A DNA stretch of 64,000 nt from contig VERJ01000004.1 of assembly GCA_018882795.1 (NCBI GenBank), positions 1-64,000 of the forward strand, in the 5' to 3' direction. The translations under genes and the position numbers were made by a program. This stretch comes from Burkholderiaceae bacterium (GTDB lineage Bacteria > Pseudomonadota > Gammaproteobacteria > Burkholderiales > Burkholderiaceae_A). Every line of letters begins with the position of its first letter. The stretch's first letter is position 1. Of the stretch, positions 49,723 to 63,620 are shown piece by piece. The notes under the pieces were generated by a model. The model had not been told where the DNA came from. It saw only the letters and a list, made by a program, of their open reading frames with translations, and did no database searches.

Positions 49723-49923
49723 TTAACCGCCCGTGATCGGCTCAAAGGTCATCACCTGATCGTTGTCAGATAACGATCTTTCCTGGCGCGCATCGCGTGG
49801 CACGAACACGCCGTTCACAGCAGTGGCGCAGGACTTCTGCTCAATCCCAGCCTGATCCAGCAAGGCCGAGAGCGTGCAGCCTTCTGCGCAAGCATGGGCC
49901 GTGCCGTTAACGAAGACCTGCAT
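49723..49923 (-). CDS. thiS: Sulfur carrier protein ThiS
   Basis: A 66-residue ubiquitin-fold carrier ending in the Gly-Gly (FEPITGG) that is thiocarboxylated. It begins MQVFVNGTAHACAEG and contains TAVNGVFVPRD, a ThiS hallmark. The ATG at 49923 overlaps the end of thiO; the frame is open further upstream but that is thiO sequence. ThiF, needed to adenylate ThiS, is not in the window. Confidence 0.93.
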   Translation of the reverse strand: MQVFVNGTAHACAEGCTLSALLDQAGIEQKSCATAVNGVFVPRDARQERSLSDNDQVMTFEPITGG

Positions 49924-50956
49924 CGCCCAATGCCTTTTCAATAACAGCAGGGGCCAGCAGCCAGCCATGCCGAAAAAGCCCGTTGATGCGAATCAGCCCG
50001 TCTTCCACATTCATGTAAGGTAGATTATCGTGGGTAGCTGGCCGCAGATTGGTATCTGTCCAGAGCACCCGGGCCTCGGCCAGAGCGGGGAAGATACTAA
50101 AGGCTGCTGAGAGCAGCTCCATCGTGCTCTGCACCGAAATGGGTGATCGGTCTTCGCTTTCAATTTCGGTGGCGCCAATCACCAGACGATCATCTGGGTG
50201 GGGCACGATATAGACCCGCCAGCGCGGATGCAGCAGCCGCACCGGGCGGTGTAGCACGAAGCCGAGTGCAGAGAGCACAATCACCTCGCCACGTACACCG
50301 CGGACATCCAGCGTGTCGCTTGCCCCGGTGCCGCGGACATCAATCACCCAGTCAAAACGCAGTGATTCACCATTGGAGACGATACCGCCTGGTTCAATCG
50401 CGTCTGCCCGAGCACCCCAGCGCCAATTCACCTGGGGCAGGGCTGCGTGCAGGCTGCTCATGGCTTCTGTCGGATGCAGATGGCCTTCGCCTTTTAAGCG
50501 CCATGCATGCAGTGTGCCCTTGAGCATGGGTGCGAGCGGTGCGATATCCCGGGCTTCAAGTTCAATCATGTGATCAGGGTCGTTATCCAAGAGCCGCAGG
50601 ATGCGTTGCGCTGATCCCGCATCCGATGCGTGGCAGACCATGAGGCTGTCATTGAGCGCAAGACCTAGCGGCGATACCGCATCACATGGCCGTGGCAGCA
50701 TCGATCTCAGGGCTTTGTCCATGTCTTGCCAGAGTGCAAGCGACCTCAGCCCGAGATCACGTACCACTGGCCCGCCGCACTCCATTTCGGCAATGGGACT
50801 GAGCATGCCCGCTGCTGTCCAGCCTGCGGCCCGGATCGTATTGGGCCCGGGCGAGGGCGGAGAGGGTTCAAAGACTGTTACATCGTGACCAGCCTTGGCG
50901 CAATGAAAGGCGGCAAGCCTTCCCAGCACACCAGCGCCTGCAATGCCAATACGCAT
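49907..50956 (-). CDS. thiO: Glycine oxidase ThiO
   Basis: A 349-residue FAD-dependent amine oxidase (DAO family) that makes dehydroglycine for the thiazole ring. The FAD-binding motif is GIAGAGVLGRLAAFHCAKAG, and the C-terminal region has VIGATEIES and NGLFRHGWLLAPAV, typical of ThiO. Its presence implies the ThiO, oxygen-using route rather than the radical-SAM ThiH route. It overlaps thiS by 17 bp. Confidence 0.92.
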   Translation of the reverse strand: MRIGIAGAGVLGRLAAFHCAKAGHDVTVFEPSPPSPGPNTIRAAGWTAAGMLSPIAEMECGGPVVRDLGLRSLALWQDMDKALRSMLPRPCDAVSPLGLALNDSLMVCHASDAGSAQRILRLLDNDPDHMIELEARDIAPLAPMLKGTLHAWRLKGEGHLHPTEAMSSLHAALPQVNWRWGARADAIEPGGIVSNGESLRFDWVIDVRGTGASDTLDVRGVRGEVIVLSALGFVLHRPVRLLHPRWRVYIVPHPDDRLVIGATEIESEDRSPISVQSTMELLSAAFSIFPALAEARVLWTDTNLRPATHDNLPYMNVEDGLIRINGLFRHGWLLAPAVIEKALGDAGLR

Positions 50957-50972
50957 GTTGCTGTAATACTCC

Positions 50973-52898
<1,926 letters not shown>

Positions 52899-53831
52899 TT
52901 AATCTGTTGAGGTGTCAGGCACGGTGTCAGACACCGTGCCTGACACCTTCGGGGTAAGGTGCATCGGCTGGGGATCAAAGCCATGATTCACTGGGCCATG
53001 TCCATGGCCTACCCGCATGGCTACCGAATGCGAAATCGCCTGATAAACATAGTCTTGCGCGCCTTTGACTGCTGCCTTGAGTGGGTAGCCGAGCGCCAGG
53101 TAGCAGGCAATCGCAGAAGAGAGCGTGCAGCCCGTGCCGTGCAGGTTATTGGTGTCGATGCGGGGCTTGACGATCTCGGTGATCGACCGATGGATTGCCA
53201 CGTCGTCCTTCGGGCTCCTCGCAATAACGGCTTCTTTAAGCGTAGATGGCGTGAACTCCACCAGCATATCCATCAAATTCGGTGACTTCATGTGGCCGCC
53301 CTTTACCAATACATTGCGGGCGCCCATCTCATACAGTTGTACTGCGGCCGACTCAAACTGCTCCCAACGCGCCACCGTCTGCCCGATCAGCCAGGAGAGT
53401 TCATCGAGATTGGGTGTGACGAGTGTGGCCAGTGGGAAAAGAAGCCGCACAATCTCTTCCTGGGTCTGGGGCGTGATGAGCTTATCGCCACTGGTGGCCA
53501 CCATCACGGGGTCCAACACCACGAACCCCGGCCGATATGTTTTCAAGGCATCGGCTACCACGGCCACGATCTCGGGCGAGTGCAGCATGCCGATCTTCAC
53601 CGCATCTGCACCGATGTCCTCGAACACTGCATCTAACTGGGCGCCCAAGAATGCCGGGTCTGGTGCATGAATCGCACGCACACCCTGGGTGTTTTGTGCA
53701 GTGAGCGCGGTGATGGCCGTGAGCCCATAGCAGCCCAGCGCTGAAATGGTTTTTAAATCCGCCTGAATGCCTGCACCGCCTCCGCTATCGGAGCCGGCGA
53801 TGGAGAGAACTTTTTTGGGAGTGAAGGCCAT
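52899..53831 (-). CDS. thiD: Hydroxymethylpyrimidine (phosphate) kinase ThiD, repeat-expanded
   Basis: A 310-residue ribokinase-like enzyme phosphorylating HMP to HMP-PP. It opens VLSIAGSDSGGGAGIQADLK, with DPVMVATSGD, TPNLDELSWLIG and the anion-hole motif NLHGTGCTLSSAI. It is 40 or more residues longer than usual (about 265). Two stretches are repeat-derived: residues about 201-213 (VIARSPKDDVAIH, family 1) and the C-terminus VSGTVSDTVPDTSTD (family 2). Both keep the frame open. First gene of the thi operon, 10 bp after the TPP riboswitch. Confidence 0.93.
   Translation of the reverse strand: MAFTPKKVLSIAGSDSGGGAGIQADLKTISALGCYGLTAITALTAQNTQGVRAIHAPDPAFLGAQLDAVFEDIGADAVKIGMLHSPEIVAVVADALKTYRPGFVVLDPVMVATSGDKLITPQTQEEIVRLLFPLATLVTPNLDELSWLIGQTVARWEQFESAAVQLYEMGARNVLVKGGHMKSPNLMDMLVEFTPSTLKEAVIARSPKDDVAIHRSITEIVKPRIDTNNLHGTGCTLSSAIACYLALGYPLKAAVKGAQDYVYQAISHSVAMRVGHGHGPVNHGFDPQPMHLTPKVSGTVSDTVPDTSTD
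52910..52948. repeat. Perfect 39-bp palindrome, family 2, at the thiD 3' end
   Basis: AGGTGTCAGGCACGGTGTC and its exact reverse complement flank a single central base. It ends 9 bp before the thiD stop codon and 24 bp before the thiC start. On the thiD strand it encodes KVSGTVSDTVPDT. In mRNA it would form a strong hairpin at the thiD-thiC boundary. No T-run follows, so it is not a standard terminator. Confidence 0.85.
53191..53230. repeat. Palindromic repeat, family 1, in frame inside thiD
   Basis: TGGATTGCCACGTCGTCC...CTCCTCGCAATAACGG; on the minus strand CGTTATTGCGAG...GGCAATCCATCG. It is the general GTCATTGCGAG...GCAATCCA repeat form, with CGTTATTGCGAG identical to the nagZ copy. It encodes VIARSPKDDVAIH between conserved parts of ThiD, in what should be a surface loop. 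Confidence 0.75.
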
Positions 53832-53840
53832 GATTGCTTT

Positions 53841-53919
53841 CCTACGCCGGTATCAGCCGGATCAGGTTCAAGGGTATTTCTCAGACCGACAACCCTGCCG
53901 GTCACCCCTAGCGAAGGTT
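53841..53919 (-). promoter_or_regulatory. TPP riboswitch (THI element) controlling the thi operon
   Basis: Read on the minus strand, the conserved TPP aptamer parts appear in order: GGGGTG (5' stem), CTGAGAAATACCC, TTGAACCTGATCCGG and TACCGGCGTAGG. The 3' end lies 10 bp before the thiD start, and its terminal GTAGGAAAG contains the likely thiD ribosome binding site, which suggests control of translation: bound TPP would hide the site. No terminator hairpin with a T-run sits between aptamer and thiD. Confidence 0.95.
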
Positions 53920-54070: not shown

Positions 54071-56110
54071 TTACTTCGCCATCTTCAGATCAGGGTAGCG
54101 AACCGACTCCACCAGCTCTTGAACCTGACGGTTCGGAGCGGGGGTGATCAAGCTCACGATGATGATCACGGCAAAGCCCAGCGGCACGCCGAACAAGCCG
54201 GCCGAGATCGCGGAGATCTCAAACCACTCGTTCACAATCGGGGCCGAACGGGGGATACCCAGGAAGACCTCACGCAGCCATGGCTGGTTCTGCACCATAT
54301 AGAAGAAGGTGATGCCGATACCTGCGACCATGCCCAAGCTTGCTGCGATACCCGTGGTGCGTTTCCAGAAGATGCCCATCACGAGAGCCGGGAAGAATCC
54401 TGCCGCAGCGAACGAGAAGGCCGCAGACACCAGGAACAGAATGTCAGCAGGTTTCTGTTGCGCCACCAGGGCAGCCAACACGGCAACAATCAGCAGCATG
54501 GTCTTGGAGAGCACCACACGGCGGGCCACAGGGGCCGACGGATCGATCATCTTGTAATACACGTCGTGCGAGAGTGCGTTAGCAATGGTCAGCAGCAGAC
54601 CGTCAGCTGTTGACAGTGCCGCAGCGAGACCACCCGCAGCCACCAGGCCGGAGATCACATAGGGCAGGCCCGCGATCTCTGGCGTTGCCAGCACCACAAT
54701 GTCTGCACCGATGGAGACCTCGGCAAGCTGCACGATCCCGTCCTTATTCAGGTCAACAATCGACAGTAGACTCGGATCCACCTTCGCCCAGTTCTGCACC
54801 CAGGCCGGCAGCGATGCATAGGCCGAGCCAACGATGTCGTTGTACATCACGAACTTCACCAGCACAGCAAGTGCAGGCGCCGAGAAGTACAGCAGGAAGA
54901 TGAAGAACAGCGACCAGGTCACGGAGTTACGGGCCTCACGCACCGATGGTGTCGTGTAGAAACGCATCAGGATGTGTGGCAGTGCTGCGGTACCCACCAT
55001 CAGACAGAAGATGAGCGCCAGGAAGTTCTTGCGAGACTTGTTCTGGGCGGCTTCGTCCTTGCCAGGGAAGGCCTGGGCATGCGGCAAGGGTGGGTTGCCG
55101 CGAGCGGCACCGGCCTTGGCCTTATCCAAGCTTGCCTTGTAGGCTTTTTCATCGGCCGGGAACTTGTCCGCCGTGCCAGCAGCTTCTGCAGCGGCCTTGT
55201 CAGCAGCGTAAGAGGCTGGAACATCCTTCAGCTTCTCGGTTGCAGCAGCAGCCCGATCCTTGAAGATCTGACGGACTTCAATTTCCTTGGGATCAGCCGT
55301 GATCTTCTTCTCAAGCTCCGTGACCTTTTGGAGCTGCTGGCCGTAGACCAATTGCGGCACAGGCACGCCTGTCTGCTTCACGCCAAGCCAAACCAGCGGA
55401 ATCATGTAGGCAATGATCAGGATGATGTACTGGGCTACCTGGGTCCAGGTCACCGCCTTCATACCACCCAGGAAGGAGCAGACCAGAATACCGGCCAGTC
55501 CCAGGAACACGCCAACTTCAAACGACACACCAGTGAGGCGGGTTGTGATCAGGCCCACACCGTAGATCTGCGCCACCACATAGGTGAAGGAGCACAGAAT
55601 CGCAATACACACACCGATGAATCGGGGCAGATTGCCGCCGTAGCGTGCGCCGAGGAAGTCCGGAATCGTGAACTGACCGAACTTGCGCAGGAAGGGCGCC
55701 AGGAACACGGCCACCAGCACATAGCCACCGGTCCAGCCCATGATAAAGGCCAGGCCACCGTAGCCCTGCAGGTAAAGACCACCGGCCATACCGATAAACG
55801 ATGCAGCCGACATCCAGTCGGCGCCCGTCGCCATCCCGTTAAACACAGCGGGAACGCGGCGGCCGGCGACGTAGTATTCGTCAGCATCGCTGGTGCGGCT
55901 CATAATGCCGATGCCGGCATAGAGCAGCACGGTCGCAGCCAAGAAGACGTAGCCCATCATTTCACGTGAGAGACCCATCTGCTCGGCAATGCCCAGCAGA
56001 ATCACGAAAATGGCGAAGCCACCTGTATAGAAGCCGTAGACCTTTTTCAGTTGGCTGGTGAAGGCCTTCTGAGATTGGGCCGGAGCGGCAATAGGATTGT
56101 TAGAAGCCAT
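54071..56110 (-). CDS. Sodium:solute symporter, VC_2705/acetate-permease type
   Basis: A 679-residue SSS-family transporter with about 13 membrane helices. Family segments: DEYYVAGRRVPAVFNGMATG, ADWMSAASFIGMAGG, WTGGYVLVAVFLAPFLRKFG and [18 protein letters not shown]. Between about residues 250 and 355 lies a hydrophilic Lys/Ala/Glu-rich insert (EKKITADPKEIEVRQIFKDR onward) absent from E. coli ActP but known from Burkholderiales members. It follows a DUF4212 gene by two bases. Likely substrate: acetate or another short-chain organic acid with Na+, by family; unproven. Confidence 0.92.
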   Translation of the reverse strand: MASNNPIAAPAQSQKAFTSQLKKVYGFYTGGFAIFVILLGIAEQMGLSREMMGYVFLAATVLLYAGIGIMSRTSDADEYYVAGRRVPAVFNGMATGADWMSAASFIGMAGGLYLQGYGGLAFIMGWTGGYVLVAVFLAPFLRKFGQFTIPDFLGARYGGNLPRFIGVCIAILCSFTYVVAQIYGVGLITTRLTGVSFEVGVFLGLAGILVCSFLGGMKAVTWTQVAQYIILIIAYMIPLVWLGVKQTGVPVPQLVYGQQLQKVTELEKKITADPKEIEVRQIFKDRAAAATEKLKDVPASYAADKAAAEAAGTADKFPADEKAYKASLDKAKAGAARGNPPLPHAQAFPGKDEAAQNKSRKNFLALIFCLMVGTAALPHILMRFYTTPSVREARNSVTWSLFFIFLLYFSAPALAVLVKFVMYNDIVGSAYASLPAWVQNWAKVDPSLLSIVDLNKDGIVQLAEVSIGADIVVLATPEIAGLPYVISGLVAAGGLAAALSTADGLLLTIANALSHDVYYKMIDPSAPVARRVVLSKTMLLIVAVLAALVAQQKPADILFLVSAAFSFAAAGFFPALVMGIFWKRTTGIAASLGMVAGIGITFFYMVQNQPWLREVFLGIPRSAPIVNEWFEISAISAGLFGVPLGFAVIIIVSLITPAPNRQVQELVESVRYPDLKMAK

Positions 56111-56112
56111 GA

Positions 56113-56379
56113 TCAGTCGTCCTCCGCCTCAGCCACGCCAAACTCTTTGTCCATCTGATTCATCGATCGGGCGTAGTACCAGATGATGGCGATGTAGATG
56201 ATCAGAGAGCCTTGTGCGCCCATGTAAAAGGCGAACGGCCAGCCGAAAAAGTTAAAAGAAAGTTCGCGGGCATAAAACCCCACGACATAGGTAACGACAA
56301 ACCACAGAGCGAGCAGCCAGGCTGTCTTTCTGAGTGTCGCCTGCCAATAGGCAACGTGTTTTTCACTTAATTGCATCAA
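56113..56379 (-). CDS. DUF4212 small membrane subunit of sodium symporter
   Basis: An 88-residue protein with two membrane helices (WLLALWFVVTYVVGFYA and GAQGSLIIYIAIIWYYA) separated by the conserved FNFFGWPFAFYMGAQG. DUF4212 proteins occur almost always directly before a VC_2705-type symporter, as here, and are thought to be its partner. TTTAGGAGG precedes the ATG. The acidic tail (MDKEFGVAEAEDD) is typical. Confidence 0.92.
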   Translation of the reverse strand: MMQLSEKHVAYWQATLRKTAWLLALWFVVTYVVGFYARELSFNFFGWPFAFYMGAQGSLIIYIAIIWYYARSMNQMDKEFGVAEAEDD

Positions 56380-56471: not shown

Positions 56472-57071
56472 TCATCTCCTGTATTTCGCAAATGGGTCCT
56501 CCACGCCAGCCTGCACACCTGTCTCCCGTTGCAGTTGCACAGCAAGCTGTGGCTCGAACTTGTGTAATTTTTTGACCAGCTTGATGCAGGCTTTTTCGTC
56601 TCCAAGCCGATGGTGCAGGCTGGCCAACTGGTAGTAGCCATAAGGGCTCATGGGCTGCAGGTCGATGGTGCGCTCAAGTGCCGCTTTGGCTTCTGCTGGC
56701 CGGTTCATGGCGATTAGGGAGAGCGCACGGCCGTAGTGGGCACGGTCCATCTTTTCCTGGTGGCGGATCGCCTGGTCAAAGCAATGCAGGGCTTCTTCGT
56801 GGTCCTCGCGCTTCTGAATCAGGAAACCCAGATTGAACCAAGCGGACGAGTAGCTGGGTTCGACTTCAATGGCCTTGCGCAGCAGGGCCTCGGCCTCGTG
56901 GTTACGTTTGACCTCTGCCATGCAGGTGGCGGCAGTGGTCAGTGGCAGGGCCCCTTTTTCAGGTTTGGCTTCAGCAACACGCAGCCAATACTCCGCGGCA
57001 ATCTCGAACTTCTTGAGCACCATGGCCCAATTCGCGATCTGTGCATAAAACCAGGCGTTGAGCGCGCGCAT
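56472..57071 (-). CDS. Tetratricopeptide repeat protein
   Basis: A 199-residue soluble protein built of about five TPR units, for example AEALLRKAIEVEPSYSSAWF, EEALHCFDQAIRHQEK and AKAALERTIDLQPMSPYGYY. TPR domains mediate protein-protein contact; the partner is unknown. No signal peptide. It begins one base after the stop of the small membrane-protein gene upstream, so the two form an operon, and lies 92 bp before the DUF4212 gene on the same strand. Confidence 0.82.
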   Translation of the reverse strand: MRALNAWFYAQIANWAMVLKKFEIAAEYWLRVAEAKPEKGALPLTTAATCMAEVKRNHEAEALLRKAIEVEPSYSSAWFNLGFLIQKREDHEEALHCFDQAIRHQEKMDRAHYGRALSLIAMNRPAEAKAALERTIDLQPMSPYGYYQLASLHHRLGDEKACIKLVKKLHKFEPQLAVQLQRETGVQAGVEDPFAKYRR

Positions 57072-57072
57072 C

Positions 57073-57357
57073 TTAGGCTGCCTGCTCCAGCATCATGCTG
57101 AATTTGGTGTAAGAGAGAAACAGCCAGATCCAAAACAGCAGCATCAGCGCTACAAAAGGCACATGCTGATTAGCGACTTTGTTCGGGGTAATGATTCGGG
57201 TTACGCGGACTACGGGGGACGTGATGAGCCGAAACATCTTGTAGACCGCGTTGCCCTCGTGTTTGCCGAAGCTCAGGGCATAGACCAGCCCCTGGCCAAT
57301 CAGCAAAAGGCCCGCAAATTCAGCGAGCCCTTTCAAAATCACCACCACAGAAAGCAA
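57073..57357 (-). CDS. Small two-helix membrane protein of unknown function
   Basis: A 94-residue protein with two hydrophobic segments (LKGLAEFAGLLLIGQGLVYAL and HVPFVALMLLFWIWLFL) flanking a basic stretch (YKMFRLITSPVVRVTRIITP). I recognise no named family. The frame is open to 57474, but a TTG at 57357 with AAGGGGA six bases upstream gives a start just before the first helix and clears the promoter region of the divergent CBS gene, so I prefer it. Cotranscribed with the TPR gene (one-base gap). Confidence 0.6.
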   Translation of the reverse strand: MLSVVVILKGLAEFAGLLLIGQGLVYALSFGKHEGNAVYKMFRLITSPVVRVTRIITPNKVANQHVPFVALMLLFWIWLFLSYTKFSMMLEQAA

Positions 57358-57495
57358 ATTTGTCCCCTTTGTTGTCCTGCCTTGATCTGCTGCAAACCCC
57401 ACGGCTATCTTCCCCAAGCCGACGGATGGTCTAATCCTTGTTGGCAGGGCACGATACTTCGCCCAAGCCGCCATGTCTACTTAGGGAATAACACT

Positions 57496-58995
57496 GTGTC
57501 TGATGCATCGCAACAAGATCTGACGGAACTGGCCCTGGATACCCGGGTCGGCCAACTCATCCGTAAGAGCCCCCTCGTCTGCCTGCCGACCACCCCGCTC
57601 AAGCAGGTGTTCGAGGCCATGGACAAGGAAAAGGCGGGTTCTATGCTGGTCTCGGATGAGACCGGCGTGGTCCAGGGCATCCTGACCCGCTATGACCTGA
57701 TCAGCCGGGTGATCCTGCCCGCACTTCCGCTTTCAACCCCAATTTCCCAGGTGATGAGTACGGGAATTAAGACCATTGATGCCGAAAGCGGCGCGCTGGA
57801 GGCCATGCTGATGATGGCCCGGCACAAGGTGCGGCATCTGCCCGTGCTGCACCAGGGCTTTCTGGTGGGCATGGTGTCGGAGGGAGATCTATTTAATTTT
57901 CAGCGATCCAGCCTGCGGATCCTCTCGGCCAGTATTGAGCAGGCCGAGACCATCGCCGATCTGAAGGTCTGTGCCGCAGAGGTCCTGCGGCTGGCCCGGC
58001 GGCTCATGGCCCAGGGGGTGGCGGCAACCTCCCTGGCCAGACTGGTGAGTCATTTAAACGACAGCCTGACTCGGCGCGTGATTGTGATCACCGAGCAGGA
58101 CCTGCGCTCCGAGTTGGGCGAGCTGCCCGCCTGGTGCTGGCTTGCCCTGGGCTCGGAGGGTCGGGAAGAGCAGACGGTTGCCACAGATCAGGACAACGCG
58201 ATTATTTTCGAGGGCGATGGCGAGACCTATCGCTCAAGATTCAAGCAACTCGCAGGCGAGATCAACCGCGCCCTGGCTGACATTGGATTTCCCCTGTGCA
58301 AGGGCGGTGTGATGGCCATGAATGACAAGTGGTGCCGCAGTGTCGATGAATGGCACGATCTTCTGGCGGGCTGGTTTCAATCGCCCATGCCCGAGGCCTT
58401 GTTGGATGCGAACATCTTTTTTGACTTTCGCGGGCTGTATGGCGAGGTGGGGCTTGCCGAGTCCCTGCGCGATTGGTTATCGAAGCAGGTGGGCAGCCAT
58501 GGCCTGTTTCTCAGGTCTCTGGCCCAGGATGCCATGCGCGATGAGGTCTCCAAACTCACCAGCAACGGGGTGATCATCAGCATTGCCCGTGCTTTAAGAA
58601 AGCGTGGGCACAAGGCGGATTGGCTCGCCCCCGCAAGTCTTGAGATGAAGCGTGGCGGCACGGCGCCGGTGGTTTATTTTGCCCGTGTGCTGGCCCTGGC
58701 CAAGGGAATTGCGGCCACATCGACCGATGAGCGGCTTCGGATCCTGGTGGATCTTAAGGCCATGAGTGAATCGGAATCGCACCAGATGCGGGATGCCTTC
58801 AATGTGCTGCAGCGCTATCGACTGCGGGCCCAGCTGGATTACGCCACTCGGGCCGAGACTGCCGATCAGGGCGATCTTTCACCCAATCTCCTGGCCCTGG
58901 ATGAGCTCAGTTCGCACGAGATCGAGCGCCTCTCCGAGGCCTTATCTCACCTGGGTGGGCTACGCGCACGACTGGAGATGGATTTTCTGCGCTAA
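57496..58995 (+). CDS. CBS-pair DUF294 nucleotidyltransferase-like protein (no cNMP domain)
   Basis: A 499-residue protein. Residues about 15-135 are a CBS pair (VGQLIRKSPLVCLPTTPLKQ, then ISQVMSTGIKTIDAESGALE and VRHLPVLHQGFLVGMVSEGD). About 215-240 is a GlnD-like nucleotidyltransferase motif, GSEGREEQTVATDQDNAII, with the Asp pair intact; a DUF294 C-terminal domain follows (about 320-495). I start at GTG 57496; the open frame upstream overlaps the divergent gene. The CBS pair should bind adenine nucleotides. Such proteins accompany Na+/acetate-type symporters in proteobacteria, but the target of transfer is unknown. Confidence 0.87.
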   Translation: MSDASQQDLTELALDTRVGQLIRKSPLVCLPTTPLKQVFEAMDKEKAGSMLVSDETGVVQGILTRYDLISRVILPALPLSTPISQVMSTGIKTIDAESGALEAMLMMARHKVRHLPVLHQGFLVGMVSEGDLFNFQRSSLRILSASIEQAETIADLKVCAAEVLRLARRLMAQGVAATSLARLVSHLNDSLTRRVIVITEQDLRSELGELPAWCWLALGSEGREEQTVATDQDNAIIFEGDGETYRSRFKQLAGEINRALADIGFPLCKGGVMAMNDKWCRSVDEWHDLLAGWFQSPMPEALLDANIFFDFRGLYGEVGLAESLRDWLSKQVGSHGLFLRSLAQDAMRDEVSKLTSNGVIISIARALRKRGHKADWLAPASLEMKRGGTAPVVYFARVLALAKGIAATSTDERLRILVDLKAMSESESHQMRDAFNVLQRYRLRAQLDYATRAETADQGDLSPNLLALDELSSHEIERLSEALSHLGGLRARLEMDFLR

Positions 58996-59006
58996 AGGGG
59001 GCTGAC

Positions 59007-60833
59007 ATGCCGAGTGGATTTAATTTCGCAGCATCGCCATTTGATTGCTTAAGCCGCCAAGAGCAGGAGCTGGTGAGCAACAGCGTGGATGTCGCCTATT
59101 TCCGACAGGGGGAAACCATCCTGGATGTCGGCGCAGAGCCCACACACCTCTATGTGGTGATCAAGGGCTATGTGCAACAGGTCGAAGATGGCGAAGAGGT
59201 GGGGGTGTATGGGCCGGACGACTGCTTTGATGGCCGGGGCCTGGTCGCAGGTAAGGTCTCAGATCAGTTCATCGCCATGGAGGAGGTAGTCGCCTACGAG
59301 CTCTCCAAGGCTGCGGTCATGGAGCTGATTTCTCGTAACAGCACCTTTGGTGCTTTATTGTTCGAGGATCTCTCCAAAAAGCTTACCGCACTGTCAGAGC
59401 GGCGTAGTCAGCATGAACTCCACACCCTCAGCATGGCGCGTGTGGATCAGGCCTTTCTCAGGCCACCGGTGTTCGTGGAGATTACAGAAAATGTCCGCGC
59501 GGTTGCCGAGATCTTCAACAAAGTGCGCACCAACAATGTCATGGTTCGCGACAACAGCAGTGTACCGCCGCGGCTAGGTATCTTCACGCTGGGCAGCCTC
59601 AGTCGAGCCATTTTGGATGGCACACCGCTGGATCAGCTGCAGGTGGGCAAGCTCGCCCATTGGGGCCTGATCAAGGTCAGGCCCAGTGATCATCTCTATG
59701 ATGCCCTGGCGATCATGGTGCGGCATAAGGTCACGCGGGTTGTGGTCATGGATAACGAAGAAGTGGTGGGCCTGCTGGAGCAGGTGGATCTTCTGAGCTT
59801 CATGACCAATAGCTCCTCGTTGATTGTGCAGAGGATTCTTCAGGCCCAATCGTTGCAGCAGCTGCACGAGGCCGCCCAGGAGATCACCCGATTGGTCGCA
59901 CTGCTGCACCGAAACGGCACCCGAGTGGGCATGATCGCCAAGCTGGTCCAGGAATTGAATGCAACCCTGTTTGATCGGACCTGGTCGCTCTTGGCGAGTC
60001 CGGAGTTGCGGGCCAACAGCTGCCTCTTTGTGATGGGCAGCGAGGGCCGTGGCGAACAGCTGCTGAAGACCGATCAAGACAATGGTCTGATCATTCGCGA
60101 TGATTACCCTGATCTGGCAGAGGCCGAGCGGACCTGTGAGCGGTTCTCCAAGGCCCTGGAAGGCTTCGGTTATCCCGAGTGTCCAGGAAAAATCATGGTC
60201 AATAATGCTGAGTGGCGACTCACGGCATCGCAGTTTTCCCTGCGCGTGCGCAACTGGCTGCTGGAGCCCACAGCTGAGGGGCTGATGGCACTGGCCATCT
60301 TCATGGATGCCCATGCGGTAAGCGGCGATTCGGAGCTCTTGAGGGCTGTCAAACAGAGCCTGCACGCGTTTCTCACTGATAACGATTTTCTGCTCGCGCG
60401 ATTTGCATCGGTGATTGAGGCGTTTTCATCGGAGACTGGCTGGTGGAATCGATTGTTGCAGATCGGCGATAGCAGCCCAGAGATGGTCAACCTGAAAAAA
60501 GCAGGCATTTTTGCCATCGTGCATGGCACGCGCAGTCTTGCCTTACAGCATCGGCTGTTTGAGACATCGACGGTGGAGCGGCTAGAGCGCTTGGTGGAGA
60601 TGGGCAGGCTCTCCAAAGACACATCCCTGCATCTGATCGAAGGGCTGCACTTTCTAATGGGATTGAAACTCAAGGAGGGCCTGCGCCAACTGGAGACCCA
60701 TCAACAGGTCACAGGCGATGTGGATATGCGCAGCCTGTCTACATTGGAGCGTGACTTACTCAAAGACACGCTCAATGAGGTGAAGAAATACAAGACCTTT
60801 CTGCGGCAGCATTTTCATCTCGAGGCCGCATGA
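59007..60833 (+). CDS. cNMP-binding/CBS-pair DUF294 nucleotidyltransferase-like protein
   Basis: A 608-residue paralogue of the preceding protein with an added N-terminal cyclic-nucleotide-binding-like domain (about 12-125; FRQGETILDVGAEPTHLYVV, EEVGVYGPDDCFDGRGLV). A CBS pair follows (about 150-275; WGLIKVRPSDHLYDALAIMV, VTRVVVMDNEEVVGLLEQVD), then the nucleotidyltransferase motif GSEGRGEQLLKTDQDNGLI near residue 346, and DUF294_C (about 440-600). It starts 11 bp after the first gene with GGGG upstream; its end overlaps the exonuclease gene by ATGA. Confidence 0.9.
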   Translation: MPSGFNFAASPFDCLSRQEQELVSNSVDVAYFRQGETILDVGAEPTHLYVVIKGYVQQVEDGEEVGVYGPDDCFDGRGLVAGKVSDQFIAMEEVVAYELSKAAVMELISRNSTFGALLFEDLSKKLTALSERRSQHELHTLSMARVDQAFLRPPVFVEITENVRAVAEIFNKVRTNNVMVRDNSSVPPRLGIFTLGSLSRAILDGTPLDQLQVGKLAHWGLIKVRPSDHLYDALAIMVRHKVTRVVVMDNEEVVGLLEQVDLLSFMTNSSSLIVQRILQAQSLQQLHEAAQEITRLVALLHRNGTRVGMIAKLVQELNATLFDRTWSLLASPELRANSCLFVMGSEGRGEQLLKTDQDNGLIIRDDYPDLAEAERTCERFSKALEGFGYPECPGKIMVNNAEWRLTASQFSLRVRNWLLEPTAEGLMALAIFMDAHAVSGDSELLRAVKQSLHAFLTDNDFLLARFASVIEAFSSETGWWNRLLQIGDSSPEMVNLKKAGIFAIVHGTRSLALQHRLFETSTVERLERLVEMGRLSKDTSLHLIEGLHFLMGLKLKEGLRQLETHQQVTGDVDMRSLSTLERDLLKDTLNEVKKYKTFLRQHFHLEAA

Positions 60834-61477
60834 GCAATCCCAAGGGGGGGCTGATGCAGTCCCTGCAGCAGAAGTGGATGCGCATGCGTCTTACCGATAC
60901 GCGCTTTCAGTTCATGTTCGATGCCGCACCCGATCAGGAGTGGGTCTGCCTAGACACGGAGACCACGGGTCTGAATGTGGAAACCGAAGAAATCATTGCG
61001 GTGGGCGCAGTCCGAATCGTGGGCAACCGCATCCTGACCAGTGAGCGGCTGGAGCTTCTGATTCGCCCGGAGAAAAAGGTCTCTGAGGGTGCGGTGAAGG
61101 TCCACCGGATCCGTGAGCAGGATCTTTCAGCGGGATTAAAGCCAGAGGATGCCATGGAACGGCTGCTGAATTTCATCGGCAGCAGACCGCTGGTGGGCTA
61201 CTTCCTGGAGTTCGACGAGGCCATGGTCAACAAAACCGTGCGTCGCATGATGGGCATTGGCCTGCCCCAGCCCAAGATCGAGGTCTCATCGATGTACTAC
61301 GAGTACAAAACCAAGCAGCTTCCCCATCACCTGCGGGAGATGACCCAGATTGATCTGCGATTCGCCAGCATGATGAAGGATCTGGCCCTGCCGCTGCGCG
61401 AGGCCCACGATGCAATCAATGATGCGGTCATGACGGGCATGGCCTTTATCAAGCTGCGCAATATGCTGGCTTCTTAG
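60830..61477 (+). CDS. DEDDh 3'-5' exonuclease, DNA polymerase III epsilon-like
   Basis: A 215-residue exonuclease. ExoI is VCLDTETTGLNVETEEIIAV (Asp-x-Glu), ExoII lies around VGYFLEFDEAMVNK, and ExoIII is HDAINDAVMTG, giving the DEDDh set. It is not DnaQ itself (a short, stand-alone form with a distinctive RMRLTDTRFQFMFD N-terminus), and is the type regularly found next to DUF294 genes. Natural substrate unknown. Coupled to the preceding gene by ATGA overlap; a terminator follows. Confidence 0.88.
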   Translation: MSNPKGGLMQSLQQKWMRMRLTDTRFQFMFDAAPDQEWVCLDTETTGLNVETEEIIAVGAVRIVGNRILTSERLELLIRPEKKVSEGAVKVHRIREQDLSAGLKPEDAMERLLNFIGSRPLVGYFLEFDEAMVNKTVRRMMGIGLPQPKIEVSSMYYEYKTKQLPHHLREMTQIDLRFASMMKDLALPLREAHDAINDAVMTGMAFIKLRNMLAS

Positions 61478-61578: not shown

Positions 61579-63312
61579 TTAGTGGCCGGATGCGCCCGAA
61601 GCTCCGAGCCCAGTTTCGGAGCGGACCTGCTGGGCGTCGAAGTCCTCGCGCTCTTTCGCTGCCTGCGCACTGTTATCGAGCTTGGAGAAGATATAGATCG
61701 ACACAAAGGCAATGGTCATGGAGAAGAGTGCGGGTGAAGTGTAAGGGAAAAGCGCGGATCCCTTGGGATTGCCAAACACTGCCTCCCAGACCGATGGCGA
61801 GACCACGGTGAGTGCCACCGAGGAAATCAGGCCCAGAAACCCACCAATCACCGCACCCTTGGTGGTGCAGTCTTTCCACAGCACCGACATGAAGAGCACT
61901 GGAAAGTTGGCCGATGCCGCGATGGCGAATGCCAGCGACACCATGAAGGCGATGTTCTGTTTCTCGAAGATGATGCCCAGCAGCACAGCGATCACGCCAA
62001 GCGTTAAGGTGGTGAGCCTTGATACGCGCAGCTCTGCCTTGGTATCGGCTTTGCCCTGCTTGAATACCGTGGCATACAGGTCGTGTGAGACTGCCGATGC
62101 GCCGGAGAGCGTCAGGCCAGCCACCACCGCAAGAATCGTGGCAAAGGCGACCGCTGAAATGAAGCCATAGAACACATCACCGCCTACTGATTTCGCCACC
62201 AGTACGGCCGCCATATTGGCCGTGCCCGCCCCGCCCTTGATCACGCCTTTCGCGGTATCTGCAAACTCGGGATTGGTCAGCACCAGGGTGATTGCGCCAA
62301 AGCCGATGATGAAGATCAGGATGTAGAAGTAGCCGATCCAGGTCGTGGCCCAGAACACCGATTTGCGTGCTTCCTTGGCATCGGGCACAGTGAAAAATCG
62401 CATCAGGATGTGGGGTAGGCCTGCGGTGCCAAACATCAGCGCCATGCCGAAGGAGATTGCGGAGATCGGGTCTTTCACGAATCCACCCGGATTCATGATC
62501 GATCCACCCATCTTTGCCGCCTCTTCCGCGCTCTTGCCGGCATTGACCTGAATCGCAGTCTTGACCTCAACGCCCTTGGCAAAGAGCGCCTCGGGGCTAA
62601 AGCCATACTGGGCCATCACCATGATCGCCATGAACGTCACACCGGAGAGCAGCAGACAGGCCTTAATGATCTGCACCCAAGTGGTGGCGGTCATGCCACC
62701 AAAGAGGACATAGACCATCATCAGACCGCCGACAATGACCACGGCCACCCAGTACTCCAGGCCGAAGAGCAGTTTGATCAGCTGACCCGCACCCACCATC
62801 TGGGCGATCAGGTAGAAGGCCACGACCACCAGGGTGCCGGAGGCCGCAAATGCTCGGATGGGTGTCTGTTTAAAGCGGTAGCCGGCCACATCAGCGAAGG
62901 TGAATTTGCCAAGGTTGCGCAGGCGTTCGGCCATCAGAAAGGTAATCACCGGCCAACCCACCAGAAAGCCAATCGAATAGATCAGACCGTCGTAGCCACT
63001 GGCCATGACCGCAGCTGAAATACCAAGGAAAGATGCGGCCGACATATAGTCGCCCGCAATCGCCAGGCCATTCTGAAAGCCCGTGATTCCACCACCTGCA
63101 GTATAGAAATCGGCAGCTGATTTGGTGCGTGCGGCTGCCCATTTGGTGATCCAGAGTGTCGCCAGCACAAAGGCGCCGAACATGCCGATCGCAGTCCAGT
63201 TAGTGGCCTGTTTTTCCGCCTGTCCTACGTCACCCCCGGCCGCAATCACGGCTCCGGAGAGGGCCAGCAGCGCCACAGCGCCTGCGAATTGTTTAAGGGT
63301 GCTCATGCTCAT
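61579..63312 (-). CDS. actP: Cation/acetate symporter ActP
   Basis: A 577-residue SSS-family transporter of the ActP type. It begins with a signal-like hydrophobic segment ([14 protein letters not shown]), then about 13 helices; family segments include [53 protein letters not shown] and [16 protein letters not shown]. It takes up acetate and similar short-chain acids with a cation. Its start overlaps the DUF485 stop, the usual yjcH-actP pairing. The ATG at 63306 is an alternative start. Confidence 0.95.
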
Positions 63313-63620
63313 TTGCCGCCCTCCTTTTTCAGGATTTCAGCGGTCAGCGCATCGAACTCGCTGTTGGCACGGCGGACATAGATGCCGGTGATCACAACGG
63401 TGAAGATGATCACGCCCATGCCGATGGGCACGCCGATGGTGGTGACGCCCTCGCCAAGTTTTGTAGACAGAAACTCTTTGTTAAAAGCGATCAGAGCGAT
63501 ATAGCCGTAGTACACGATCATCATGAGGATCGTGAGCATCCAGCCAAAGCTGCTGCGTTTACTTTTTAGTTCGTGATACTTCGGATTCGCCTTGATACGG
63601 GCGACGACGTCGTCACTCAT
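63309..63620 (-). CDS. yjcH: DUF485 (YjcH-like) inner-membrane protein
   Basis: A 103-residue protein with two membrane helices ([22 protein letters not shown] and [22 protein letters not shown]) and the N-terminal [16 protein letters not shown] typical of DUF485. It is regularly found directly before actP, as here (overlap by three bases), and is presumed to assist the transporter. GGAGAAGC precedes the ATG on the minus strand. Confidence 0.93.

Follow-up and report, generated by a model that had tools for sequence, protein, structure and literature searches.

We have found that two separately evolved, ancient gene modules are joined around positions 57,496 to 61,477 of a 64,000-nucleotide stretch of DNA from a Burkholderiaceae bacterium (NCBI GenBank assembly GCA_018882795.1, contig VERJ01000004.1); the whole stretch is referred to here as the window. 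One module combines gene A, encoding a putative nucleotidyltransferase of the DUF294 family, with a VC_2705-type symporter and its DUF4212 subunit. The other combines a second DUF294 gene, B, with gene C, which encodes a DEDDh exonuclease, and with a DUF485/ActP symporter pair. DUF294 genes are coupled to exonuclease genes, and the grouping of DUF294 with symporter and exonuclease is recurrent, widespread and far above chance. That association has itself been published before; the two-module split and the gene fusions described below appear to be new.

Two modules joined at one locus

DUF294 loci were collected across the class (185 genomes) and the order (100 genomes), and their neighboring genes were mapped. 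Gene calls were stop-to-stop open reading frames (ORFs), and for the Vibrio and Aeromonas plasmid loci the ORFs of the records were used. Eighty named loci were picked by similarity and hence do not form a random sample. Loci and genomes are cited by L and G numbers where they need to be told apart.

The earlier note on this DNA, made from the letters alone, had described A and B as a tandem duplicated pair. The two proteins are only 26% identical. In a tree of 124 DUF294 proteins, built with a short search as was the exonuclease tree below, B falls within a clade of 16 members (support 100) whose neighbors are ActP/DUF485 and a C-type exonuclease, and A falls within a clade of 60 members (support 96) whose neighbors are mostly DUF4212/VC_2705-type symporters and an exonuclease of another subtype. 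The 36 members of a third clade also lie mostly beside DUF4212/VC_2705-type symporters and an exonuclease of non-C subtype. A more distant ActP-like symporter takes that place in a minority of the A-clade and third-clade loci. This split between modules rests on about 200 loci, with some genes counted in more than one locus and some loci cut by contig ends. The tree places A and B in different deep clades of the DUF294 family, each with partners of its own elsewhere. A recent local tandem duplication is ruled out by the low identity, the separate clades and the separate partners.

Each half of the locus also occurs without the other. The left half, with symporter, DUF4212, TPR protein, small protein and divergent A arranged as in the window, was found in Curvibacter (L174), Rhodoferax (L176), Tepidimonas (L214) and locus L165, and within the same family A stands without B in L163 and L165. 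Genes ordered DUF485-ActP-B-C, as on the right, occur without A in Pseudomonas aeruginosa pHOU1-1 (L244) and Methylocella tundrae. The whole DUF485-ActP-DUF294-exonuclease stretch of pHOU1-1 is found on a plasmid record, with flanks that are chromosome-like. Among the sampled loci, a VC_2705-type symporter with a B-type gene nearby was seen in the window genus only. A second species of this genus (G247, locus L128) has an identical gene order over the whole stretch, with identities of ~83% for A, ~79% for B and ~85% for C, and the arrangement therefore predates the window strain.

The host genome is 2.03 Mb in 85 contigs and is 99.8% complete; it falls in a large order with relatives labelled Burkholderiales or Betaproteobacteria. 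Of the named relatives of A, the nearest come from the aquatic metagenome-assembled genome WB4_1_1048 (75%) and Burkholderiales bacterium LSUCC0115 (50%). A search of the rest of the window genome for a cognate exonuclease of A found none, and none was found in the LSUCC0115 genome, in which A and the symporter are present.

Because only B carries a cyclic-nucleotide-binding (cNMP) domain, A and B had been proposed to be two sensors that feed a single output. This is no longer the default reading, since two modules are joined here and each has its own symporter family. Moreover, the A clade of the DUF294 tree shows at least four losses of the cNMP domain, so that the absence of this domain from A, one of these losses, need not mark a division of labor. 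Elsewhere, in five loci (L069, L070, L076, L081 and L085), two DUF294 genes of different clades flank a DUF4212-symporter pair with only one exonuclease, an arrangement in which two sensors possibly serve one transporter.

Exonuclease coupling, catalytic site and predicted fold

The earlier note had also held that DUF294 proteins, symporters and exonucleases recur together in proteobacteria. Neighborhood analysis bears this out and shows that the association is not confined to the window strain. In the first set of 118 loci, an exonuclease is found near DUF294 in 99, and 94 exonuclease matches lie within 1.5 kb of DUF294 versus two in the remaining 1.37 Mb. The exonuclease is nearly always on the DUF294 strand and usually directly downstream. 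On a tree of 97 exonucleases, a single change (support 100) separates those beside A-type genes from those beside B-type genes; none of 500 shuffles gave a value as low.

Fusions tie the two proteins together more directly. Exonuclease-CBS-CBS-DUF294-DUF294_C proteins were found in seven genomes, with the exonuclease residues intact in six and a DUF4212-symporter nearby in five. The first, L062:8828-10999, unites RNase_T, two CBS domains, DUF294 and DUF294_C in one protein and adjoins a DUF4212-symporter pair. Its relative L063:8156-10267 is the same fusion with the exonuclease part stripped of catalytic residues and the remainder kept. Among 299 Pseudomonadota genomes that were searched, five further full-length fusions in three families turned up (L267-L271; Pfam-checked for L268). 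The D-x-E, FD, H and D residues are intact in every one of these, and DUF4212-symporter genes lie near three.

Other variants of the family were noted. An extracellular-type sCache_2 sensor and a PAS domain precede CBS-DUF294 at L083:5975-8530 and L067:8745-11525, which represents a membrane-bound version with the same output. A DUF294-DUF294_C protein with no recognizable CBS domain precedes a second DUF294 gene at L187:7156-8523. At L061:8743-10515 (G149), an in-frame TAG breaks a B-type gene while the exonuclease is open, owing to either decay or a sequencing error. In open clustering of the neighbors, acetyl-CoA synthetase appeared in 33 of the 118 loci, a cluster of histidine kinases in 30 and response regulators in 20. 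One of the neighboring histidine kinases has a weak SSF match that is reminiscent of CrbS. Family-less clusters of 147, 98 and 88 loci were set aside, as they are apparently reverse-frame ORFs over listed genes.

Both proteins keep the catalytic Asp pair, as had been claimed for them, and their nucleotidyltransferase sites show no degeneration. The motif GSx10DxD occupies residues 219-233 of A and 344-358 of B and is present in practically all of 112 relatives. Positions that are invariant or nearly so among these 112 proteins (numbered as in A) are G219, S220, R223, E225, Q226, D231, Q232, D233, N234, C268, G270, M273, D310, K385, R397 and R413, and A and B both carry all of them. Judged from this conservation, the invariant D310 is a candidate third catalytic carboxylate. 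GSx10DxD is the motif shown to AMPylate HepT, that is, to attach adenosine monophosphate (AMP) to it, in MntA (PMC7641770).

The sensor domains of the two proteins differ. Both CBS motifs of A (GILTRYD and GMVSEGD) fit the adenosine pattern GhhT/SxxD, and both of those of B (GIFTLGS and GLLEQVD) depart from it, the second change recurring in most B-clade members. In the model, the cNMP domain of B adopts the expected fold. Other residues occupy the positions of CRP Glu72 and Arg82 in B and almost throughout the three clades. Because the canonical Glu and Arg are missing, the label 'cAMP-binding' (cyclic AMP) published for this family (PMC5715377) is doubtful.

By sequence, the solved relatives were only CBS pairs and DnaQ-type exonucleases, and predicted structures were therefore compared instead. 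AlphaFold models of A and B have a mean pLDDT (predicted local distance difference test) of 90.9 and 87.5, respectively. VIA-align ranked the GlnE N-domain, the GlnE C-domain and DrrA as the top three matches of both models (Z 22.9-27.1), ahead of single CBS or CNB domains. All three are protein AMP-transferases, and the GlnE N-domain runs the reverse reaction. The modeled fold favors modification of a protein over chemistry on RNA or small molecules. DUF294_C had already been grouped with GlnE and DrrA (PMC3710099).

A candidate AMPylation switch and its alternatives

It is hypothesized that both modules serve sodium-driven short-chain carboxylate uptake. Each DUF294 protein would be a GlnE-like protein AMP-transferase, set by nucleotides on its CBS pair, and the target of its modification would be the symporter or a protein of acetate or pyruvate use. 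The DEDDh exonuclease would be the counter-acting phosphodiesterase that strips the nucleotide off the target, giving a writer and an eraser. Gene A, with an intact catalytic site and two intact CBS adenosine motifs but no exonuclease of its own, would be the energy sensor for the VC_2705-type system; in the window genus it could share C, given that it lacks a cognate exonuclease here. The general statement, namely two modules and a protein AMP-transferase switch with the exonuclease as a functional partner, is in our judgment evenly balanced between right and wrong. An eraser role for the exonuclease is more tentative and rather doubtful. The complete scheme is unlikely to hold in every part: a dedicated pair of enzymes, one writing and one erasing protein AMPylation under the control of adenine nucleotides on the CBS domains, would switch sodium/carboxylate symporters or an acetate-activating enzyme on and off, and the exonuclease would be the first DEDDh deAMPylase.

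An AMPylation switch is favored because of the fold and motif, the LSUCC0115 lineage and published phenotypes. In Pseudomonas putida, deletion of pp_0353 (the exonuclease) or of actP-I slows growth on pyruvate, and deletion of pp_0354 (the DUF294 gene) does not (PMC9927547). These phenotypes are what one would expect of a target that works in its unmodified state. In LSUCC0115, A and the symporter are present and no cognate exonuclease was found, which points to a target other than the exonuclease alone. The two-module split, the exonuclease enrichment near DUF294, the exonuclease tree, the fusions and the recurrent acetyl-CoA synthetase and histidine-kinase neighbors also count in favor, and RNase Z provides a precedent for a nuclease as a deAMPylase (PMC12663964). 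The earlier suggestion that nucleotide levels drive the (de)modification of a transporter or regulator stays reasonable as far as modification is concerned, as the folds match protein AMP-transferases; its appeal to cyclic nucleotides fares worse, the cNMP domain lacking the canonical Glu and Arg family-wide.

Several points weigh against an AMPylation switch. RNase T, itself a DEDDh protein, left AMP on SelO substrates from which RNase Z removed it (PMC12663964). The retention of the site in A with no exonuclease means that an eraser is not always needed. The literature gives no known activity or target for DUF294 proteins of the A/B type, and fold likeness is no proof of reaction. The symporter is a less constant neighbor of DUF294 than the exonuclease is. 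A conserved acceptor tyrosine was not found in DUF485; the position is a mixture of Tyr and Phe in the B-linked proteins, and this tyrosine was rejected as the modification site on that ground.

The alternative that survives best makes the exonuclease the effector, degrading selected RNAs of carbon metabolism or transport, with DUF294 modifying C to hold it off in the style of MntA-HepT. It draws on the tightest genomic link, that of DUF294 with the exonuclease, including their co-evolution and fusion, on the MntA-HepT precedent with the same GSx10DxD motif (PMC7641770), and on the pyruvate phenotype, which belongs to the exonuclease and not to DUF294 and for which mRNA decay was suggested by the authors (PMC9927547). 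It explains the fusions and phenotypes about as well as a writer and eraser would. However, in the window's own family A persists by its symporter with no cognate exonuclease, and the L063 fusion kept DUF294 while its exonuclease part decayed. We consider this alternative rather improbable.

Co-regulation only, with DUF294, exonuclease and symporter having separate functions under shared carbon conditions and no mutual action, would account for their common CrbR/ErdR control in Pseudomonas (PMC5715377, PMC8402216) and for the unlinking from actP in P. putida. It sits poorly with the exonuclease-DUF294 fusions and matched phylogeny, with the separate symporter families of the A and B types, and with an association that persists here without an SSF-type sensor kinase or a clear ACTU site, and we hold it to be quite improbable.

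There is slightly less room still for a nucleotidyltransferase that extends an RNA 3' end (of tRNA, for example) and an exonuclease that trims it, such that the module controls translation and not a protein. DEDDh exonucleases of the RNase_T family do work on RNA 3' ends, some polymerase-beta-type nucleotidyltransferases lengthen RNA, and the two activities would suit a natural exonuclease-DUF294 fusion. This is very improbable, as the best fold matches across the catalytic and helical domains are protein AMP-transferases and the scheme has no place for the constant pairing of one symporter family with each DUF294 clade.

Lastly, a local duplication that now provides two sensors with one output has next to no probability: A and B are adjacent, on the same strand and alike in core architecture, with a single exonuclease in reach of both and no cognate A exonuclease found in the genome, but their divergence, deep clades and partners, and the existence of each gene without the other, speak against it.

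Returning to the AMPylation switch, the pyruvate phenotype of the exonuclease, with none for DUF294, had lacked an explanation when published. The comparative evidence presented here narrows the field to two mechanisms, the writer-eraser switch and the exonuclease effector, because of the matched phylogeny, the fusions with both sites kept, the GlnE/DrrA-type fold, the non-canonical cNMP site and the LSUCC0115-type lineage. DUF294 is common in Proteobacteria, beside acetate and pyruvate transport genes.

Locus layout, regulation and known systems

All three genes that the earlier note had described were recovered as ORFs on the forward strand (Table 1). Pfam identified the same CBS, DUF294 and DUF294_C core in A and B and the cNMP domain in B only, in line with that note; PF03445 and PF10335 scored 151.5 and 75.3 bits in A and 133.2 and 127.8 bits in B, above the curated cut-offs. 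The assignment of C to the DEDDh exonucleases likewise stands, with matches to RNase_T and NF006601/PRK09145 (283.8 bits, cut-off 189; NCBIfam). Its catalytic set is D42, E44, D129, H193 and D198, of which D42, E44, H193 and D198 are conserved and FD is present at 128-129. The DUF4212-symporter and DUF485-ActP flanks were verified by Pfam and NCBIfam; the left symporter matches TIGR03648 with 785.8 bits (cut-off 320.75) and its small subunit TIGR03647 with 89.9 bits (cut-off 26.05). A and B are separated by 11 bases, and the stop codon of B shares an ATGA with the start codon of C. The small hydrophobic protein, for which a family search gave no match, probably starts at a TTG at 57357, as judged from its homologues; a longer ORF extends to 57474. 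Adjoining the symporter operon, a TPP (thiamine pyrophosphate) riboswitch at 53822-53919 on the reverse strand precedes the same-strand thiamine ORFs 52899-53831, 50973-52886 and 49907-50956.

Table 1. Features of the joined locus, in window coordinates
Feature	Position	Strand	Evidence
VC_2705-family sodium/solute symporter (TIGR03648), A-clade partner	54071..56110	-	Pfam, NCBIfam, neighborhoods
DUF4212 small subunit (TIGR03647) of VC_2705-type symporter, A-clade partner	56113..56379	-	Pfam, NCBIfam
TPR protein, recurrent neighbor of VC_2705-type symporter	56472..57071	-	Pfam, neighborhoods
Small hydrophobic protein, ~94 residues, recurrent neighbor of VC_2705-type symporter	57073..57357	-	Homologues
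Divergent control region between small hydrophobic protein and gene A, ~138 bases	57358..57495	.	
Gene A, CBS-CBS-DUF294-DUF294_C putative nucleotidyltransferase, 499 residues, GTG start, no cNMP domain	57496..58995	+	ORF, Pfam
Gene B, cNMP-CBS-DUF294-DUF294_C putative nucleotidyltransferase, 608 residues, PP_0354/PA3233 type	59007..60833	+	ORF, Pfam
Gene C, DEDDh 3'-5' exonuclease, 215 residues, NF006601, PP_0353/PA3232 type	60830..61477	+	Pfam RNase_T, NCBIfam
ActP-type cation/acetate symporter (NF006903), partner of B and C	61579..63312	-	Pfam, NCBIfam, neighborhoods
DUF485 (YjcH-like) subunit, ActP operon	63309..63620	-	Pfam, neighborhoods

Published counterparts of B and C are PP_0354/PP_0353, Pflu5625 and PA3233/PA3232, which are targets of CrbSR/MxtR-ErdR and, in P. 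aeruginosa, are neighbors of actP and yjcH (PMC5715377, PMC8402216, PMC9927547). Expression of PA3232-3235 rises ~16-fold on propionate (PMC9765439), and in P. putida the unit is unlinked from actP (PMC9927547). In our comparison the P. aeruginosa and Methylocella copies served as stand-ins for P. putida PP_0354, and the B clade and gene maps display the PP_0354/PP_0353 pattern, with cNMP-CBS-DUF294 followed by an NF006601 exonuclease near DUF485-ActP.

The SSF proteins of the window genome are only ActP, the VC_2705-type symporter and one 508-codon frame; no SSF-type sensor kinase of the CrbS kind was found in this genome (99.8% complete, in 85 contigs), and no SSF frame is long enough for a kinase fusion. 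Scanning upstream of A, DUF4212 and DUF485 for the ACTU (CrbR/ErdR) site found none at the level of known sites: the best score upstream of A was 9.3 versus 16.8-22 for the listed sites, with a matrix of only seven sites, all from P. fluorescens. A conserved block just before the start of A was considered as a control site and is better explained as the ribosome-binding site of A. Without an SSF-type sensor kinase or a convincing ACTU site, regulation here probably differs from that of the CrbSR unit.

Among known systems, PP_0354/PP_0353, Pflu5625 and PA3232-PA3235 match B, C, ActP and DUF485 in architecture and, for P. aeruginosa, also in grouping. The window differs from these in its added A/VC_2705 module, in the transcription of C and B towards ActP and not downstream of it, and in having neither an SSF-type sensor kinase nor a clear ACTU site. 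MntA-HepT shares GSx10DxD and the pairing of a nucleotidyltransferase with a nuclease (PMC7641770), although it consists of a small MNT protein and a HEPN RNase in a toxin-antitoxin setting, with no CBS domain and no symporter. SelO and RNase Z resemble the proposed pair in that a ribonuclease removes protein AMPylation (PMC12663964); the writer and eraser folds differ from those of DUF294 and the exonuclease, and RNase T was inactive in that assay. The AMP-transferase domain of DrrA/SidM is the third-best fold match (Z 22.9 and 24.8) and had earlier been grouped with DUF294_C (PMC3710099), whereas DrrA is a secreted effector with a host GTPase target and without CBS/cNMP-type sensors. GlnE shares the nucleotidyltransferase and helical domain (model Z 24-27) and the DxD pair. 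It differs at ~12-15% identity, DUF294 having one catalytic unit and not two, CBS/cNMP sensors in place of PII control, and an exonuclease partner. If the writer-eraser scheme is correct, carbon uptake would have a nucleotide-gated AMPylation switch like the control of glutamine synthetase by GlnE in nitrogen assimilation.

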